A stretch of 48,714 nucleotides of DNA from Burkholderiales bacterium (GCA_947463885.1 CANHUQ010000003.1:1-48714), one strand, 5' to 3'. Positions 1 through 8,898 are shown, counted from the first letter of the stretch. The notes: generated by a model not told the origin, from the letters alone. Numbers and translations: made by a program.

Positions 1-277
1 ACCACGAGGTGTGCAACTGCTGATCGCCCCAATAGACACGCGTGGGGTAGCTGCGTGTGGCATAGGGCGAATAACCGGGTTTGTCGGAGCGCACGGCCGC
101 TTTGGCGGGCTCGGACGCGCTGGTCGTCCCGGCGGCCTCGCTGCGAGGGGCTGCACCCTGGCTCTGTGCGTCAGCGCTGGGCCACAGGACCGTGGCGACA
201 CCGATCGGTACCGCCACCGCTGCGGCGGCGATGGCAAAGAGACGGCTCGGGGAGGGCATCGAGATGGGGCGTTTCAT
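1..277 (-). CDS. DUF3604 domain-containing exported protein (partial, 3' end outside window)
   Basis: Manual minus-strand translation from ATG at 277: MKRPISMPSPSRLFAIAAAAVAVPIGVATVLWPSADAQ...KPGYSPYATRSYPTRVYWGDQQLHTSW; signal peptide followed by the DUF3604 N-terminal 'YWGDQQLHT' motif. Confidence 0.8.
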   Translation of the reverse strand, partial: MKRPISMPSPSRLFAIAAAAVAVPIGVATVLWPSADAQSQGAAPRSEAAGTTSASEPAKAAVRSDKPGYSPYATRSYPTRVYWGDQQLHTSW

Positions 278-353
278 CGGATGACTCGCAGGGTGAGGTT
301 TTTCGAAGTGTATCGGCGCCGAGACGGCGCACCTGTACGAAGGGATGAGGGGT

Positions 354-959
354 TCAAGAGGTGCGCCGCTTGGTGGCGGCAGCGGGGATGGGTGTGGGGC
401 GCCAGGTCTCGATGGCCGCGCTGACGGTGCTGGCCGCAGTTTGTGGGCCATAGATGCGCACCACACCGAGTTCGATCGCTTGCGCAAGCCGCATGCGGCC
501 TGTTGCCAGGGCTGCGAGCACCGGCTCGTCGGTGAGCAGCACGACGTCACCTGAGACCGGCCCATCTGCGTGAACCTGCAGCGCCATCGCATCGCCCTGC
601 TGCTCGAAGCGCGACCACATCATTGGCCCCATGAGCAGTACGGCGAAGGTCGGAGTCGGTTGTTGGGGGCGCTGGGCGGCCAGATGATCGCGCAGCTGCG
701 TGAGCTGACCTGACACCTCACGATAGCGTTGCGCCAGGGCCAGGCGTTCGGCAATCGGGTTGGCAGGCGGGGTGGTATCGGCGCGCGCGAGCAGACCCTC
801 GAGCTGGGCCTGCCACACCGCGGTGCGTACCCACAGGGCATTGGGGTACGCAACATTGAGGGCGCCCACCGCTGCGTTGCCGTGATAACCGCAGGCGATC
901 ACGGGAAACGCAGCGACAATGAGCGCAGCCATGGCCGCCAGGCGTGCAGAGGCGGCCAT
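354..959 (-). CDS. hypothetical exported protein / putative lipoprotein
   Basis: ORF 201 aa; hydrophobic N-terminus ending in VIAC (lipobox-like); co-directional with flanking DUF genes. Confidence 0.7.
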   Translation of the reverse strand: MAASARLAAMAALIVAAFPVIACGYHGNAAVGALNVAYPNALWVRTAVWQAQLEGLLARADTTPPANPIAERLALAQRYREVSGQLTQLRDHLAAQRPQQPTPTFAVLLMGPMMWSRFEQQGDAMALQVHADGPVSGDVVLLTDEPVLAALATGRMRLAQAIELGVVRIYGPQTAASTVSAAIETWRPTPIPAAATKRRTS

Positions 960-982
960 GGTGTGCAGAGGCGCTGGCTGTC

Positions 983-2440
983 TTATTTGATCTCCACCAG
1001 ATCCGGCAGTGCCCAGGTCTTGTTGAAGTAAGGCTCGGTTGGGCCATAGAGCCGGAAGTAGGTGAACCAGCCCTTGCCCGGCACGGTCTGCACGAAGTTG
1101 TCGCTGGCACCGGCCGGCTTGGTGGGGCCGAAGAACAGGTCAACCGAGCCGTCGCTGTTTTGCACCAGCCCAGGCTTGCGCGACGAGATGTCGGCCGCAC
1201 CCTGCGGCGTCTGCAGCGGTGCGCGGGTGATGTTCTCGTATAAGGTGAACGACCAGAACTGCTTGACCGGCGCGTTCGGCGGCACACGCAGTCTGTAGCT
1301 CTTGCCGCCATCGAGCCAGGCACCCGCCTGATCCTTGGCGGTTTCGAGGTACACCTGACCGAAGCCCAGGGTGCGACCCTGCATGCCGAGCGTGTTGCCG
1401 ATGGCCTCATAGAACCACGAGGCACGCTCATCGAGCTGCGAGTAGCCCTTGGCCTGCTGGTCGAGTTCGACCATGTTCGAGTATTCCCACTGCGTGCCCT
1501 TGAACACCGTGGAGCCTGGGAAGCGCTTTTCAAACGCATTGGCGCGAGCCATCAGTTCGCCCATCTGGGCGCCTTCTCCCAGGATTTTCTTCTGACGGTC
1601 ATTGGGCGCGAAAGGCTTGCCTTTCTCAATACCCAGAGAGCGCAGCATGGCGTAGAAGTAGCCGTCGCGCACCTCGGGTGTTTCGGGCTCGAGGACGTCA
1701 CGCAGCTGCTGAAAGTAGCTGATGTCGTTGGGCTGCCAGGAGGCCCAGTCGCGTCCGCCCACCGGAACGTAGTTGGTCACGCCCGGCTTGGCCCGATCAG
1801 CCCAGCGGTACAGACGATGCTTACGCAGCGTGGCCTCGGCCTCTTTGATATCGGGCGACAGGCCGCGTGAGCCCCACCAGACCTGGTTGGTCGGTGACTT
1901 GATCACGGTGTAGCCCGGTGCCTGCACGGGCGCGCTGCCCGGGGGCAGGATCAGGTACTTGCCGCCCTTGCCCTTGTCGGGCCCGGTCTGACCCATGTCG
2001 GTCATCGGCCGCTGCCAGATGTCGTTCACGCCGCCTGCCGTGGCGCCCGGAGGCACTTCCACTACCAGCGGACCTTTCTCGGCCAGGTTCCAGAAGCTGA
2101 AGGCGTACATGGTCGTGAGGTTGGGCGTGAGCATGCCCGCCTTGTCTTTGAGCGACTGGTACAAAACGATGTCGCCGTCCTTGGCCCCGAAGTTCTTCAG
2201 ATGGGCCTGGTGCAGGTTGTGAAAGCCCACCGCCGGCAAGCCCCACAAATAGGCCTGGCTGGCCCGCTGAAAGTCCATCTCGTCATAGATCTTTTCCACT
2301 GCAGCCTTGGACGGATAGCCGTTCTCAAGTTGCAGGGTGCCGATGCGGGTGTTCACGGGCTGCGCCCAGGCGGCCGAGACGAGGGAGGCTGACAGCGAGA
2401 GCGCTGCAGCGAAGGCGAGGGGGCGGGTGAGTCGAGTCAT
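983..2440 (-). CDS. DUF1254/DUF1214 domain-containing exported protein
   Basis: ORF 485 aa; signal peptide; 'AYLWGLPAVGFHNL...TPNLTTMYAFSFWNL' and C-terminal 'FWSFTLYE...' typical of DUF1254+DUF1214. Confidence 0.88.
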   Translation of the reverse strand: MTRLTRPLAFAAALSLSASLVSAAWAQPVNTRIGTLQLENGYPSKAAVEKIYDEMDFQRASQAYLWGLPAVGFHNLHQAHLKNFGAKDGDIVLYQSLKDKAGMLTPNLTTMYAFSFWNLAEKGPLVVEVPPGATAGGVNDIWQRPMTDMGQTGPDKGKGGKYLILPPGSAPVQAPGYTVIKSPTNQVWWGSRGLSPDIKEAEATLRKHRLYRWADRAKPGVTNYVPVGGRDWASWQPNDISYFQQLRDVLEPETPEVRDGYFYAMLRSLGIEKGKPFAPNDRQKKILGEGAQMGELMARANAFEKRFPGSTVFKGTQWEYSNMVELDQQAKGYSQLDERASWFYEAIGNTLGMQGRTLGFGQVYLETAKDQAGAWLDGGKSYRLRVPPNAPVKQFWSFTLYENITRAPLQTPQGAADISSRKPGLVQNSDGSVDLFFGPTKPAGASDNFVQTVPGKGWFTYFRLYGPTEPYFNKTWALPDLVEIK

Positions 2441-2488
2441 GGGGCGTGCGTTTACCTTGCAGAGGGGGGCGGTAGATCGTGTAGGACG

Positions 2489-3913
2489 TTACTTCAGTTC
2501 GGTGAGCGGAGGCAGACTCCAGCTGCCATCGATCAGATTGCTGCGCGGGCCGTAAAAGCGGGCTACAAAGAAGAACGGGCCTTTTGGCGTGGGCAGCCAG
2601 TTCGATGTCTTGTCACCGCCCGGGTCCGTGCTTTGCAGGTAGATGTCCATCGACCCGTCGGCGTTTTTCTTCAGCCCAGGCGAGCGGTCGCCAATCGAGT
2701 AACGGTTAAGTGGGTTATCCACCAGCAGGCGCTGGGGCAGGTTGTACATGGTGATCGACCAGAAGAGATCGGCCGGCGGCAGTTGCCCGGGTGCAAAGCG
2801 CAGCAGCCATTTGCGGTTGCCATCGAGCAGCTTGCCCTCTGGGTCAGTCTGCTGGCTGGCATAGACCGCTTCCTCCTTGGTGTTGCCGTAGATGCCCAGC
2901 ATCGCGCCCAGGGAACGATTCATCACATAGTCATTGCCCAACTGCTCACGCGTGCCGAAGAGCTTTTTCGAATCCTTCTGCACGGCAGCTGTCTCGGTCA
3001 GTTGCTTGGTGGCGTCTTGCACCCCCTGCTCAATAGCCGTGCGCAGTTCGGGCGATAAGCTGGCCGGGTCAAAGGGTTTGCCGGGCGCAATGCCGATCTT
3101 GGCGAAGCGCTCCATGGCGGCCTTCTCGGAAGGCACAGTGGGCATGAGCGGCAACATGGCGTTCAGATAACCGATGAAGCCGATGCCTTCCGCCTTGTCC
3201 TTGTCCCAGGGCGGCATGTTCAGGGGCGGCGCTGCAGGCGGCTTAGGCAGACCTGCATAGGCTGACAATGGGATCAGCCGATACTGCGCCTGCAAGGCCT
3301 GCAGGGTGGGGACATCTGCTGGGCCATTGAGTTGCGTGCGGGTGAGGGTGCCCACGATTTCGGTTTCTGCGCGGTAGACCCGCGTGATGCCCGGGGGCAC
3401 GTTCCCTTTCCAGTTTGGGCCGGCAAACAGGTAATTGCCTGGCTCGCGACCCGTGGCCCGGACCCCTGTATACGCAAAATTGTGCGTATACAGGTCGAAC
3501 CACTGGTTCACGTAATAGCGCGGCGCGGGTACGGACGGCAGCGACAGCACGATCGGCTCGGCACGCAGATCCAGCCAGGCCCACGAATAGGGTGTGTCGT
3601 TATTGGGGGTGACGATCTCGGCGTCTTGGGGGGTATAGGTGCGGGAGTAGTGCCTGAAGGTGTTCAGGCCACCCACGTATCCAGGCGCCTGGGTGTTGAG
3701 TGCCTGGTTATAGAAGGTTTGATACCCCTGGATGGGGGCGTAGCCATAGAGCCAGGCTTCTTTCGCGATCGCACGGGCTTCCGCCGGGGAGACCGCGCTC
3801 CCAGGCGCATTTGGCAGGCTTGTGCAGGCGGTCATGAGCAGACCGAAGAGGCCGGCGGCCAGTGCCGGCATGAGGCTCGTACCCGTACGCATCGTCCTGC
3901 GCTCCTGTCTCAA
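2489..3913 (-). CDS. DUF1254/DUF1214 domain-containing lipoprotein
   Basis: ORF 474 aa; lipobox LLMTAC; 'EAWLYGYAPIQGYQTFYNQ...TPNNDTPYSWAWLDLRAEP' and 'FWSITMYNLPQRLLVDNPLNRYSIGDRSPGLK'. Confidence 0.9.
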   Translation of the reverse strand: MRQERRTMRTGTSLMPALAAGLFGLLMTACTSLPNAPGSAVSPAEARAIAKEAWLYGYAPIQGYQTFYNQALNTQAPGYVGGLNTFRHYSRTYTPQDAEIVTPNNDTPYSWAWLDLRAEPIVLSLPSVPAPRYYVNQWFDLYTHNFAYTGVRATGREPGNYLFAGPNWKGNVPPGITRVYRAETEIVGTLTRTQLNGPADVPTLQALQAQYRLIPLSAYAGLPKPPAAPPLNMPPWDKDKAEGIGFIGYLNAMLPLMPTVPSEKAAMERFAKIGIAPGKPFDPASLSPELRTAIEQGVQDATKQLTETAAVQKDSKKLFGTREQLGNDYVMNRSLGAMLGIYGNTKEEAVYASQQTDPEGKLLDGNRKWLLRFAPGQLPPADLFWSITMYNLPQRLLVDNPLNRYSIGDRSPGLKKNADGSMDIYLQSTDPGGDKTSNWLPTPKGPFFFVARFYGPRSNLIDGSWSLPPLTELK

Positions 3914-3949
3914 CTGTCAACAAACGGTCGCGAGAGTGCCTCAGGGCGG

Positions 3950-3962
3950 TTGCATAGCGCAA
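3950..3962. promoter_or_regulatory. candidate LysR-type binding site (T-N11-A dyad)
   Basis: TTGCATAGCGCAA (TTGC-N5-GCAA) in the divergent intergenic region between the DUF1254 gene and the LysR gene. Confidence 0.4.
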
Positions 3963-4008
3963 TGCCAATCTTGCTATGGTTTTCATGCGTTTTAGGTATA
4001 TTCAATGC

Positions 4009-4959
4009 ATGCAAATTGACTTCCGCCTGCTCCGACAGGCCCAGGCACTGGCCGAGCACGGCAGTTTCAGTCGTGCCGCCGAAGCGCTGAATATCGCCCA
4101 GCCCTCGTTGAGTCGGGGCATCAAGGAACTGGAAGCACGGGTCGGCTTGCCGCTTTTTGAGCGACGCCGATCCGGACATCAACCCACCGATTTCGGGCGG
4201 CTGTTCCTGGATCACACCGCGCAGTTGCTGGCTGGCGTCGGCGACCTGGAACAGGAGGTCGCGCGGGCCAAGGGTCTGGTGACGGGTGAGCTTGCGGTTG
4301 GTTTCGGAGCGTATGCGGCTGAGGCGCTGGCGCCGGTCTGTGCCCCGGGGTTTGTCGCGAAGCACCCCTCGCTGCGCTTGCGGGTGCGTATGGAAGAGCC
4401 TGCTGCGATGGCCCGCAGCCTGCGCGCACGCACGATTGATCTGGCGGTGGGTGAAGCCAGTGTGCTGGCCGATGACGATGCGATCGAGGTGATGGCCACG
4501 CTCGCGCCGCTGATTGGGTATGTGGTGGTCAGGGCCGGGCATCCGCTGACGCGGCAACCCCATCCGACCCTGAACGATGTGCTGGCCTATCCGTTTGCGC
4601 AGGTGGTCATGCTGCCAGCCCGGGTGCTCAAGCCGCTCCTGGCTGCGCGCGGCGCTGCCAGTATGCCGGGCTTTCCTGCCATCGAATGCCCCAGCTTCAA
4701 CCTGGCTGCGCGGATCGTGGCCACGACCGACGCCTTCACCTTTGCCTCTTTAAGCACGCTGCGTGACGGGATGGACCGGGGGGAACTCGTGCCCTTACTG
4801 CAGGCCCCTTGGCTGCACGCCGAGTGGAGTATTGCCCGCCTGCGCAGACGCATCTTGTCGCCTGCCATGACTGACCTGGTGGAAGCCTTGCAACGTGCGC
4901 ATGTCCAGTTGCTCAGCGAGGAAGCGGTGCTGCGCGAACGATGGATCGCCACGTCCTGA
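4009..4959 (+). CDS. LysR family transcriptional regulator
   Basis: N-terminal HTH 'MQIDFRLLRQAQALAEHGSFSRAAEALNIAQPSLSRGIKELEARVGLPLFERRRSG'; start chosen at internal ATG of ORF 3976..4959. Confidence 0.92.
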   Translation: MQIDFRLLRQAQALAEHGSFSRAAEALNIAQPSLSRGIKELEARVGLPLFERRRSGHQPTDFGRLFLDHTAQLLAGVGDLEQEVARAKGLVTGELAVGFGAYAAEALAPVCAPGFVAKHPSLRLRVRMEEPAAMARSLRARTIDLAVGEASVLADDDAIEVMATLAPLIGYVVVRAGHPLTRQPHPTLNDVLAYPFAQVVMLPARVLKPLLAARGAASMPGFPAIECPSFNLAARIVATTDAFTFASLSTLRDGMDRGELVPLLQAPWLHAEWSIARLRRRILSPAMTDLVEALQRAHVQLLSEEAVLRERWIATS

Positions 4960-5060
4960 CAAGCAGCCCGGCAGGCTGAGCCGCCGACCCGGCTGCCGGC
5001 CGAGCTGTGTGCCTTTGTACAACCCGGTCTGAGAGGCCTTCTCCTGGCGTATCAGCCCCA

Positions 5061-6146
5061 TCAGGTGGCGTTGAGGCGCTCCAGCCGTTCTACCGCCTGC
5101 TCTGATTGCATCAGGGCAATGTCGATCGCGCGGCGCAGCCCGGGCATGTCCACCCCATCGGTGCTCTTCTTGCCTTCCATGTAGCGGGCGTATACGCCAT
5201 GGATGATGGCCGCAGTTTTCCAGCGGTTGAAGCCCACGTAGAAATCCAGCTTGGACAAGTCGCGCCCGGTGCGCGCGCCGTATCGGTCGGTCAGATACGG
5301 GCGACGTGCAAAGCCCGGCAGCGAGGTGGGCGGTACCACCCGCGGGTTGGGCGGGTCGGTGGGATCGAACCACTGGTTGAGCGCGTAGGCCAGATCAGCC
5401 AGCGGGTCGCCCAGCGTGGAAATCTCCCAGTCCACCACGGCAGCGATCGTGCCTTGGGGGCCGATCAAGGTGTTGTGCAAGCCATAGTCACCATGCACGA
5501 TGCGCGCCGGACCCTGATCGGGCGTGTTCTCAAGGAAATACTTCTGCAGGGCATGCGCACGCGGGTCGTCGTATTGAGCGGGTTCGGCCGAGGCCAGCCA
5601 CGAGCGATACCAGGTCTTCAATTGCCGGCCGATGTAATCGTCCTTTTTGCCCAGATCGCTTAGGCCCACCGCATCGGGGTCCACGGAATGCAGATCAGCC
5701 AGCACGTCGATGAAGGAGTCCGACATGATCATGCGGCGGTCTTCCGGCACCCATTGCTGCGTGTCCTCGGCCTTGTAGAGCGGATGGCCGTCGATCATGC
5801 CCATGACGTAGAAATGCGCGCCCGTGACCGAGGTATCTTCGCAAAACCCAAGTGCCGCCGGCACCGGCACGGGCGTGTTGCCCAGCCCTCGAATGACCGA
5901 CCATTCGCGCCCCATATCGTGCGCCTTGGGCAGGAGCTCGCCCATCGGTGGACGGCGGATGACCGCTTCGTTGCCTTGGGCGTCACGCAGTTTGAAAGTG
6001 AGGTTGGAGTGCCCGCCTTCGAGGCGGATCCAGGTGAGTGGCGGCGTGAGTTGCGGCACATGGGCGGTGATCCAGGCCTCAACAGCCGGCACGTTGTAGC
6101 CCGGGGTGGCGCTGCCTGCAGCGGCGGTGTCAGTGGTGTCGGTCAT
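5061..6146 (-). CDS. phosphotransferase family protein (APH/ACAD10-like)
   Basis: 361 aa; 'RIVHGDYGLHNTLIG...AVVDWEISTLGDPLADLAY' kinase-like motifs. Confidence 0.92.
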   Translation of the reverse strand: MTDTTDTAAAGSATPGYNVPAVEAWITAHVPQLTPPLTWIRLEGGHSNLTFKLRDAQGNEAVIRRPPMGELLPKAHDMGREWSVIRGLGNTPVPVPAALGFCEDTSVTGAHFYVMGMIDGHPLYKAEDTQQWVPEDRRMIMSDSFIDVLADLHSVDPDAVGLSDLGKKDDYIGRQLKTWYRSWLASAEPAQYDDPRAHALQKYFLENTPDQGPARIVHGDYGLHNTLIGPQGTIAAVVDWEISTLGDPLADLAYALNQWFDPTDPPNPRVVPPTSLPGFARRPYLTDRYGARTGRDLSKLDFYVGFNRWKTAAIIHGVYARYMEGKKSTDGVDMPGLRRAIDIALMQSEQAVERLERLNAT

Positions 6147-7852
6147 GCGTGGAGATCCTTGTTCAGTGCGCCTGCGTGGCGCAGTGCGGCCACGGCTTCA
6201 TCGCGCAGTTCGCGTTTGAGAATCTTGCCCGAGGGGGTGCGGGGCAGCGGCTCGAGGCAGGTGCGCACATAACGCGGCACTTCGAAGCGCGCCAGGCGTT
6301 CGCCCAGAAAACTGCGCAAGGCGTCCACATCGAGTGCGGCATCGCAATGAATGGTGGCGCCCACTTCTTCGCCCAGTCGGTCGTCGGGTACGGCGTACAC
6401 AGCCGCCTCATGCACCTGCGGGTGCTCGAGCAATGCGGCTTCCACTGCACCGCAGCCGATGTTTTCGCCACCGCGAATAATCAGATCCTTGCTGCGATCG
6501 ACGATGTACAGATAGCCGTCTGCATCGAATTGCGCGACATCTCCGGTGCGAAACCAGCCGTCTGCATCGATCATCTCAGCGTTCACCTCAGGCCGGTTCC
6601 AGTAGCCGTTGAACATTCCTGCGCCGCGTACCAGCAATTCCCCGCGTGCACCGGTGGGCACTTCGTGTCCGGCCTCATCGACGATCTTCAGTTCCATGAC
6701 CGCCGAGCATCTGCCGGAGCTTGCAGGTCGGTCCAGGTAGTCCTGACCACCGATGCCCACGCCGATGGCGTTGGTCTCGGTCATGCCCCAGCCGGTGCCG
6801 GGAAAGGCCTGCCCGAACGCGCGACCGATCTCGCCGACCTGCTCGGGCGCACGCGGTGCACCGCCCCCGCCCACGGCCAGCAGGGACGTGAGGTTACGCT
6901 GACCATCGCGCGCAAACCGCACCAGATCGCCGGTCATGGCCGCGGGTGCGATGAACGAGGTCAGGCGCTCGCGCTCGATCAGTTCAGCGCCCAGGGCTGC
7001 ATCCCACTTGTACATGCACACCAGCTTGCGCTGCGCGCGGTAGCTCGACAGGAAAATCGCGTGTGAGCCGGTCACGTGAAAGAACGGCACCGCCATGAGC
7101 GAGCCGGCTTGCTCGACGGGCGGTTGAAGGTCGACGCCTGCCACCTTGGCCGCGGCCAGGGCATCCAGTTCCCACGAGAGCAGGGCAGACAGGATCGCCC
7201 GATGTGTGCTGACGACGCCCTTGGGGTGTCCGGTGGAGCCCGAGGTGTAGAAGATCGTGGCTGGGTTATCAGCTGCCACGTGTGCGGGCGGCATGACCGC
7301 GTCGCTGCATCGGGCCAGCAGATCCGCCAACCGTGTTGTGCCGGGCGCGGTCTCGTCGGTTCGCACGCTGATGACCTGCACTGCCGGGCGATGTGCGCAC
7401 CGCGACAGTCGCTCGATGCGCTCCGCGTCTGCAAAGAGCACGCGTGCGCCGCAGTCGGTGAGCCCATAAGCCAGTTCGTCTGGCTGCCATAGTGCGTTCA
7501 TGGCCACTGCGATCGCGCCCAACGAGGTGATGGCCATGAAGGCCAGCACCCACTCGGGGTAATTGCGCATGGAGATGGCCACGCGGTCGCCGTGTTGCAC
7601 GCCGAATTCGCGCACCAAACCCTGAGCGATGCGCGCCGCCAGCGCCTGCGACTGCGCAAACGACAAGCGCTCTTCGTTGTAAATCAGAAAGGCCTTGTCG
7701 CTGACGCTCTGCTCGAACAACTCGCGCAGTGATGCCGGCGCGTTGACGAACACACGTAGTGTGCGTGCGCCAATGACCTGCGTCTGTAGCGCATATGGCT
7801 GACCCTGCGCCGTCAGCTCGGCGAGGGCCGAGGCACGGGTAATGGTGGTCAT
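6143..7852 (-). CDS. AMP-dependent synthetase/ligase (acyl-CoA synthetase family)
   Basis: 569 aa; 'TIFYTSGSTGHPKGVVSTHRA', 'GWGMTETNA', 'GWFRTGDVAQFDADGYLYIVDRSKDLIIRGGENI'; 4-bp overlap with downstream gene. Confidence 0.95.
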   Translation of the reverse strand: MTTITRASALAELTAQGQPYALQTQVIGARTLRVFVNAPASLRELFEQSVSDKAFLIYNEERLSFAQSQALAARIAQGLVREFGVQHGDRVAISMRNYPEWVLAFMAITSLGAIAVAMNALWQPDELAYGLTDCGARVLFADAERIERLSRCAHRPAVQVISVRTDETAPGTTRLADLLARCSDAVMPPAHVAADNPATIFYTSGSTGHPKGVVSTHRAILSALLSWELDALAAAKVAGVDLQPPVEQAGSLMAVPFFHVTGSHAIFLSSYRAQRKLVCMYKWDAALGAELIERERLTSFIAPAAMTGDLVRFARDGQRNLTSLLAVGGGGAPRAPEQVGEIGRAFGQAFPGTGWGMTETNAIGVGIGGQDYLDRPASSGRCSAVMELKIVDEAGHEVPTGARGELLVRGAGMFNGYWNRPEVNAEMIDADGWFRTGDVAQFDADGYLYIVDRSKDLIIRGGENIGCGAVEAALLEHPQVHEAAVYAVPDDRLGEEVGATIHCDAALDVDALRSFLGERLARFEVPRYVRTCLEPLPRTPSGKILKRELRDEAVAALRHAGALNKDLHA

Positions 7853-7946
7853 GGAAAGCGTCTCCGTCGTCGCGTTGCGCCTGCCGAATATCGAATGGCG
7901 CGCTGCGGTGATGTATCAGGTGTGTTTGAGCCTGATGATACCGATG

Positions 7947-8402
7947 TCACCCGGTGGCCGACGGGTCTTCGCCCGAGAGGTGTCTCTGGGCGGCCGCACC
8001 GAGCTTCGCATCGAAGGTCGCCAGCGGTGCTTGCAGATGGTCGGCGAGCCAGAGGTAGGACGCGTCGTAGCCTGAAAGATCGTAGCGGTGCGCCAAGGTG
8101 AAGGCTTCAAGCGGCGGCACAGCGAAGAGCTCGACACCCACATCTTCGAAATCCCGTATCGCCCGTGAAGCAAAATCGGACGAGATGGCCCGCCTTCGGA
8201 CTTTCTGGCGCGCCACATTACAAAGCTCGAAGCTCAGTAAAAACGGAGCGCATAGCCGACGCCCGCGGATCCACGCCACAGCTTCTTGCGTCCACGTTTC
8301 GGGAAATACCGTTGAGGCAAGGACACTGGCATCGATCACCAGCGTGGGTCGTAAGGCGTAGGCGACAGGTGGCTCTGCAACCATCAGTCGCGCACCAATC
8401 AT
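7947..8402 (-). CDS. PIN-domain toxin, VapC/FitB-like
   Basis: 151 aa; 'LVIDASVL', 'FELCNVAR', 'YDASYLWLADHLQAPLATFDAKL' PIN acidic residues present; ATGA overlap with antitoxin. Confidence 0.88.
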   Translation of the reverse strand: MIGARLMVAEPPVAYALRPTLVIDASVLASTVFPETWTQEAVAWIRGRRLCAPFLLSFELCNVARQKVRRRAISSDFASRAIRDFEDVGVELFAVPPLEAFTLAHRYDLSGYDASYLWLADHLQAPLATFDAKLGAAAQRHLSGEDPSATG

Positions 8403-8716
8403 GTCCCGTCCCCGTAACGGTTGTCGCGCATCTCACGAATGATGTCGACCGAACTGGGCCCCGTTCCATTGGGAAACCGCTTGAGCGCGCGCTCGTAGAC
8501 TTCATCCACCGTCAGCCGCGGCCGCTGAGGGGGTGCAGGTGGCAGACGGCTCAGGACGGGGTCGGAACCGAGCGACTGTGTGGGCGCAACCTGCGATGCC
8601 CACTCCAGCATGGCCATCAGTTCGGCCTGAAGCGAACGGCGGTTGCGTGCGGCACGGGCGCGCAGCCGTTCGGCGAGTGCGTCCGGGACGTTTTTGATCG
8701 ACAGATTGACGGGCAT
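8399..8716 (-). CDS. FitA/VapB-like ribbon-helix-helix antitoxin
   Basis: 'MPVNLSIKNVPDALAERLRARAARNRRSLQAELMAMLEWA' RHH N-terminus; start set at 8716 rather than the longer ORF start at 8878. Confidence 0.85.
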   Translation of the reverse strand: MPVNLSIKNVPDALAERLRARAARNRRSLQAELMAMLEWASQVAPTQSLGSDPVLSRLPPAPPQRPRLTVDEVYERALKRFPNGTGPSSVDIIREMRDNRYGDGT

Positions 8717-8747
8717 GGCGGTCTCGCTGAACCGGTTGGATCCGAAG

Positions 8748-8765
8748 TGGATCTTCAAAGATCCA
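8748..8765. promoter_or_regulatory. candidate toxin-antitoxin operator
   Basis: Perfect inverted repeat TGGATCTT-CA-AAGATCCA about 30 bp upstream of the antitoxin start, flanked by further GGATC copies. Confidence 0.55.
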
Positions 8766-8870
8766 TTCTGGATCTGCGCGGTTCGGTGGTCAACCCACTT
8801 CAGTTCTAGGCCGTTCGGATGAGTGCGTGCGCTCACATCTATCCAAAAATGCTGCCGCACAGGGCGACAC

Positions 8871-8898
8871 TCGGTCATCGGTCATCGGTCATCGGTCA
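8871..8898. repeat. 7-bp tandem repeat (TCGGTCA)x4
   Basis: Four perfect consecutive units; last unit contains the stop codon of the DUF1415 gene. Confidence 0.95.

Follow-up and report, generated by a model that had tools for sequence, protein, structure and literature searches.

Four genes for exported proteins stand side by side at one end of a freshwater Burkholderiales contig, divergent from the gene of a LysR-type regulator, and they raise the question whether they form one system or are neighbours by chance. The window, meaning the whole stretch of DNA analysed, is 48,714 nucleotides long (GCA_947463885.1, CANHUQ010000003.1:1-48714) and is an entire contig (C3) of a 354-contig metagenome-assembled genome (MAG). 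The four minus-strand open reading frames (ORFs) are a DUF3604 gene (2-277, truncated by the contig edge at base 2), the gene of an exported 201-aa protein called g2 (354-959), and two DUF1254/DUF1214 genes, g3 (983-2440) and g4 (2489-3892); LysR lies on the plus strand (4009-4959). This layout, first read from the sequence alone, was borne out by the ORFs and the Pfam domains. Our answer is that the set is composite: it combines two associated modules, the combination is real and recurs, and the regulator is a dedicated one. Module A consists of LysR and, divergent from it, g4 (a VPA0106-like DUF1254 lipoprotein) and g3 (a VPA0735-like DUF1254 protein). Module B consists of DUF3604, a peptidyl-prolyl isomerase (PPIase) and HupE/UreJ, with or without g2; the remainder of DUF3604 and any further downstream genes are off the contig.

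The join of the two modules was found a second time. A genome scan with g3 led to locus L066 in a lake MAG of an uncultured proteobacterium (CAJACZ010000164.1), where g3, g2, DUF3604, PPIase and HupE follow each other in one direction with overlaps or short gaps, and where g2 is 58% identical to that of the window. Since the g3-g2-DUF3604 join recurs in this independent genome, it is not an assembly artefact. The modules also share a partner: OMP_A, an outer-membrane barrel family, comes after g3 in two congeners, G003 and G004 (L039/L042), and before g2-DUF3604 in a third, G010 (L049); on plasmids of rhizobia and Bosea it adjoins DUF3604 or DUF1254. OMP_B, another barrel family, adjoins DUF1254 in 6 loci. 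Both families were seen only in such positions within 1.04 Mb of fetched neighbourhoods, the selection of which had started from DUF1254 or DUF3604. Rhizobium leguminosarum has a slot bounded by OMP_A on one flank and by a 180-aa protein with hutH on the other; it holds OMP_B-DUF1254 in strain WSM1325 and DUF3604-PPIase-HupE in strain 9B (L246 and L250; plasmids NC_012858.1 and NZ_CP050099.1); between the strains the flanks are 90.5% (OMP_A), 93% (180-aa protein) and 93% (hutH) identical. We regard modules A and B as linked because of the shared OMP_A family and this alternation in one slot, and the swap suggests related roles for DUF1254 and DUF3604. The view of the sequence-only reading, that the set is more than a chance neighbourhood, is thus upheld by the L066 join, the common outer-membrane partner family and the common R. 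leguminosarum locus.

The main rival explanation is that two independent units lie next to each other: LysR would control the DUF1254 pair only, and g2-DUF3604(-PPIase-HupE) would be a separate metal-enzyme module placed downstream by chance. We take this as a serious possibility that we nevertheless lean against. The distribution of the genes speaks for it. Neither g2 nor DUF3604 adjoins module A in seven congeners, by which a conserved four-gene cassette across the genus is rejected, and G005 and G010 have g2-DUF3604-PPIase-HupE without DUF1254. Among 143 genomes sampled from the class, DUF3604 occurs in 15, DUF1254 in 11 and both in 5 (including the window's; about 1 expected), and the two share a contig in the window's genome only. 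A shared neighbourhood of DUF1254 and DUF3604, the check that had been proposed, is seen again in L066 but in no other genome of the class sample. Two independent units are harder to reconcile with the L066 join, in which the genes overlap, and with an OMP_A family common to both modules that change places at the R. leguminosarum locus. Within the window, moreover, the g3-g2 gap is 23 bp and holds no terminator-like site.

For module A itself, the prediction that LysR is a dedicated local regulator of the DUF1254 pair is well supported, on three grounds. Its orthologs were found at 11 loci (48-69% identity) and DUF1254 is adjacent in all 11; in the 1.47 Mb of DNA fetched, the LysR next in rank has about 30% identity, so that the ortholog group is clearly separated; and the putative operator has a single match per genome in 5 congeners. 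The protein has the HTH_1 and LysR_substrate domains (Pfam). Its ORF is open from 3976 too, and the ATG at 4009 is the better start because orthologs begin M/V-[QS]-I-D-[LF]-R-L-L-R and a start at 3976 would run through the conserved operator; the divergent intergenic region is then 116 bp. The operator was found by aligning the divergent intergenic regions of relatives. It reads TATACCTAAAACGCATGAAAACCATA (3975-4000, minus strand) and contains a T-N11-A box, as expected of a LysR-type regulator with a divergent target. Congeners with DUF1254 proteins of about 70-77% identity conserve this box and a second block on the g4 side, ATAGCAAGATTGGCATTGCGCTAT (3954-3977, minus strand). L062 has the same core 16-mer, ATACCTAAAACGCATG, with a LysR of only 50% identity. 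In the 5 congeners the pattern has exactly one match per genome, always at the LysR/DUF1254 intergenic region; since it was built from these 5 sites, its presence there is by construction, while its uniqueness is not. It has 0 matches in the 7 other genomes searched, and the reversed control pattern has no match in any genome searched. Of the earlier reading, a LysR tied to the genes beside it is supported for the DUF1254 pair, with its 11 loci and operator; a conserved four-gene set is not supported, given the 7 congeners.

The reach of this control beyond the pair was considered from the transcription signals. From g4 to DUF3604 the gaps are 48, 23 and 76 bp. In window 1-8500 no promoter-like site was found, and 8 terminator-like sites were found, about the same number as in shuffled sequence; on the strand of the four genes, the scan placed no intrinsic terminator in the gaps between them. 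Read-through is compatible with these gaps and with this lack of a terminator, and so is the predicted extension of LysR control to g2 and DUF3604.

The two DUF1254 proteins are a pair of unequal members. Both Pfam domains score above the gathering score in both ORFs (DUF1254/DUF1214 E-values of 1.6e-21/1.9e-29 and 3.9e-43/6.6e-36), one protein being VPA0735-like (g3, 2.7e-120) and the other VPA0106-like (g4, 6.9e-51). With about 25-33% identity between them, they represent old, distinct subfamilies, and a recent duplication is rejected. The assignment of one lipobox protein and one with an ordinary signal peptide, made earlier from the sequence, holds: the LLMTAC of g4 is retained as LLAAC, LVAAC or LLASC in those inspected, and g3 carries an ordinary signal peptide (AWA|Q). 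Over its whole length, each protein is homologous to one Vibrio parahaemolyticus protein of solved structure, VPA0735 (2p3y, 3vb9) or VPA0106 (3u07). The significant matches of the g3 structure model were limited to 2p3y, 3vb9, 3u07 and 6ans, and since all of these are uncharacterised the fold gives no function. Where the window differs is in the tandem arrangement of the two, served by a LysR and an operator of their own; no description of it was found in the searchable literature, nor did a literature search find any paper that joins the DUF1254/DUF1214 and DUF3604 families. In the library searched, hardly any papers deal with these two large families, and for DUF3604 only a Chlamydia transposon list was found. 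Elsewhere, tandem arrays of 2-5 DUF1254 genes or fragments, some split, were seen at L043, L067, L243 and L247. A further DUF1254 subfamily of the genus (L199-L202) lies in partly conserved synteny; a CoA-ligase-like gene and, often, an M20-peptidase-like gene were recognised there by eye.

Module B is widespread in Gamma- and Alphaproteobacteria. Besides L066, DUF3604, PPIase and HupE/UreJ stand together in 10 loci from several gammaproteobacterial families (L049, L050, L120, L122, L124, L125, L127, L129, L130, L131), and Rhizobium and Sinorhizobium plasmids carry DUF3604-PPIase-HupE with overlapping genes. For example, the order on Sinorhizobium meliloti plasmid NZ_CP021803.1 is DUF3604-DUF3604-PPIase-HupE-g2, again with overlaps. 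This locus (L238, 92727-99028) is flanked by type IV secretion genes and relaxase genes; the plasmid is conjugative, and module B therefore travels on mobile DNA. The placement of g2 within the module varies, and the association is consistent. The window matches this neighbourhood in g2-DUF3604, and L066 in the whole order. Unlike the general neighbourhood, the window joins a LysR-controlled DUF1254 pair to it, and the PPIase/HupE part, being off the contig, is predicted to lie beyond the contig end.

The DUF3604 assignment of the sequence-only reading appears to hold. What the window contains is the N-terminal 92-96 aa, i.e. a signal peptide and the start of the metal-motif domain; alone, the fragment is under the Pfam threshold, and it aligns with the beginning of complete DUF3604 proteins (DUF3604 profile E 1e-10). 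Its closest relative is the DUF3604 protein of L066, with 81% identity over 27 aa, whose full length matches PF12228 with an E-value of 2.3e-238. We rejected the idea that the missing end is on another contig, the other DUF3604 matches in the genome being a different full gene (C49) and a distant one (C202). In 13 homologs, G-D-x-H-x-H-T, S-D-H, further His/Glu residues and (T/S)-D-x-H (T-D-N-H) are conserved, which include the metal motifs HxH, (S)DH and DxH of PHP proteins. DUF3604 thus appears to have the layout of the PHP metallohydrolases, with partial support from profiles. No PDB relative was found by sequence search. A bridge to a known family is given by a 747-aa protein of the same genome (G000:C202:4463-6706, L053), which matches DUF3604 at 97.7% and the NCBIfam CehA/McbA metallohydrolase family at 3.7e-7. 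CehA/McbA enzymes are carbamate hydrolases, one of them demonstrated to be periplasmic (PMC8292978). Through the bridge family DUF3604 is weakly related to them; it has metal motifs of the same type and is exported. It differs in that the L066 protein scores 12.4 bits against NF038032, far under the curated 80-bit cut-off, and in that its hydrolase activity is only predicted. The C202 gene adjoins a GntR-type regulator gene and solute-binding-protein-like genes, and is kept in several congeners.

The remaining member, g2, gave no match in Pfam, NCBIfam or PDB sequence searches. Its AlphaFold model, made from two sequences, has a mean predicted local distance difference test (pLDDT) score of 56, with 74-83 across most of the C-terminal half. 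With this low-confidence model, the top PDB matches of Foldseek were all SCP2 structures, namely SCP2 proteins (3bdq, 2.4e-4) and alkylsulfatase C-terminal domains (Pisa1). A g2 profile compared with Alkyl_sulf_C gave 50-56% probability (P about 1e-4), whereas 8 other families gave at most 0.3% and 30 column-shuffled profiles at most 0.6%. Against PF02036 (SCP2) the window g2 had no match, and one homolog reached 12.7 bits, under the gathering threshold of 21.3. Because the structure matches and the independent Alkyl_sulf_C match agree, we take an SCP2 fold, like that of sterol and lipid carriers, to be the most likely one for g2, whose classing as an exported SCP2-fold protein is new here; the protein may accordingly bind a ligand and act as a carrier. 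It resembles SCP2 domain proteins, including the C-termini of the alkylsulfatases SdsA1, Pisa1 and YjcS, in predicted fold and in a C-terminal strand-helix-helix-strand-helix pattern. Unlike them, it is stand-alone and exported, has an N-terminal ACG[YF] motif of its own and gives no Pfam SCP2 match that passes the threshold. Structure prediction, proposed earlier as a check, led to SCP2 structures for g2 and only to uncharacterised ones for g3. As for the label 'lipoprotein-like' once given to g2, export stands but lipidation is doubtful, since in the homologs an invariant ACG[YF]-type motif directly follows an ordinary A-x-A signal-peptidase site. The lipobox position reads VIAC in the window and AAAC, ARAC, AYAC or ALAC in homologs, its invariant Cys belonging to the conserved ACG motif. 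Across 274 genomes of the class, g2 was found in the window's own genome only; homologs adjoin DUF3604 in congeners G010 and G005.

The explanation that we prefer, tentatively and at somewhat less than an even chance, is a LysR-regulated envelope cluster that arose by joining the two modules and serves to take up a hydrophobic ester-like substrate on induction and to hydrolyse it in the periplasm. LysR would bind the T-N11-A box in the divergent promoter, sense a pathway metabolite, and turn on g4 and g3, with read-through probably extending to g2 and DUF3604 and, past the contig end, to PPIase and HupE. The g4 protein would be anchored in the envelope as a lipoprotein, and g3, g2 and DUF3604 would be periplasmic. 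The compound could enter via the beta-barrel that relatives encode beside these genes; after entry the DUF1254 pair may bind it or hand it on, g2 may carry or shield the hydrophobic substrate or product, and DUF3604 would act on the small ester-like compound as a PHP-type metal-dependent hydrolase, helped in folding and metallation by PPIase and HupE. The more general proposal, which we put forward as doubtful, is a so far undescribed modular periplasmic degradation system in which a DUF3604 hydrolase, a PPIase foldase, a HupE/UreJ metal supplier and an SCP2-fold carrier can be combined or exchanged with a LysR-controlled DUF1254 pair, and which dedicated outer-membrane barrels serve. If this is true, the DUF1254, DUF3604 and g2 families would share one task. 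Three handles on function are available in any case: a LysR dedicated to the pair, with one operator per genome; a fold for an exported protein that had no family; and the module swap in Rhizobium. The LysR inducer, once found, would point to the substrate class.

Several observations weigh against uptake and hydrolysis by a joined cluster. L066, the only other genome seen with the exact g3-g2-DUF3604 join, is without g4 and LysR, and the other DUF1254 loci of the genus have varied catabolic surroundings without DUF3604. The mean pLDDT of the g2 model is low. The window DUF3604 reads GDQQLHTSW (window 14-19), the second Gln replacing the first His of HxH, which is invariant in the 13-sequence alignment; the site is a metal-ligand position (GDxHxHT) and lies in the first 20 or so bases of the contig, so that either a real loss or a contig-end error may be seen. 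The DUF3604 profile had no match to DnaE PHP domains (0.5%), and its matches to TrpH-type PHP proteins (12%, motif I on I and II on II) and to the CehA profile (31%, with the motifs aligned) are weak.

A further rival holds that DUF1254, DUF3604 and g2 are an accessory set for sulfate-ester (arylsulfatase-type) or surfactant catabolism, supporting sulfatases encoded nearby or elsewhere. Sulfatases do occur in the DNA fetched around DUF1254 or DUF3604 in L063, L120, L124, L126, L239, L241, L247, L248 and WSM1325, the g2 homolog of G028 adjoins an alkylsulfatase, and the likeness of g2 to alkylsulfatase C-terminal domains would fit as well. We consider this rival improbable nonetheless: no sulfatase was found close to the window cluster or within the module A loci of the congeners, and most DUF1254 loci of the genus are without one. 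A general DUF1254-sulfatase linkage was rejected too, the result being mostly negative in 20 DUF1254 regions of congeners and relatives, with the linkage seen on some plasmids. Very unlikely, finally, is an envelope-structure or stress set with structural or protective DUF1254 proteins and a stress-sensing LysR; it would suit the lack of a conserved catalytic His pattern in the DUF1254/DUF1214 alignments and the uncharacterised state of the nearest solved structures, but the specific LysR, the patchy distribution (11 of 143 genomes), the catabolic surroundings and the partnership with barrels point to an accessory function in metabolism rather than to a core task in envelope upkeep.

Next to LysR, window 5061-7852 (minus strand) encodes an APH-type phosphotransferase and an AMP-dependent acyl-CoA ligase with overlapping ends. 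The best NCBIfam match of the ligase is the steroid-24-oyl-CoA synthetase CasG, under the cut-off, and an acyl-CoA ligase is likewise near the DUF1254 pair in L038. Farther along, at 7947-8878 (minus strand), a PIN-domain-like ORF (7947-8402) overlaps a short FitA/Arc-like ORF (8399-8878), as judged by eye, and the two are a probable toxin-antitoxin pair of the VapBC type.

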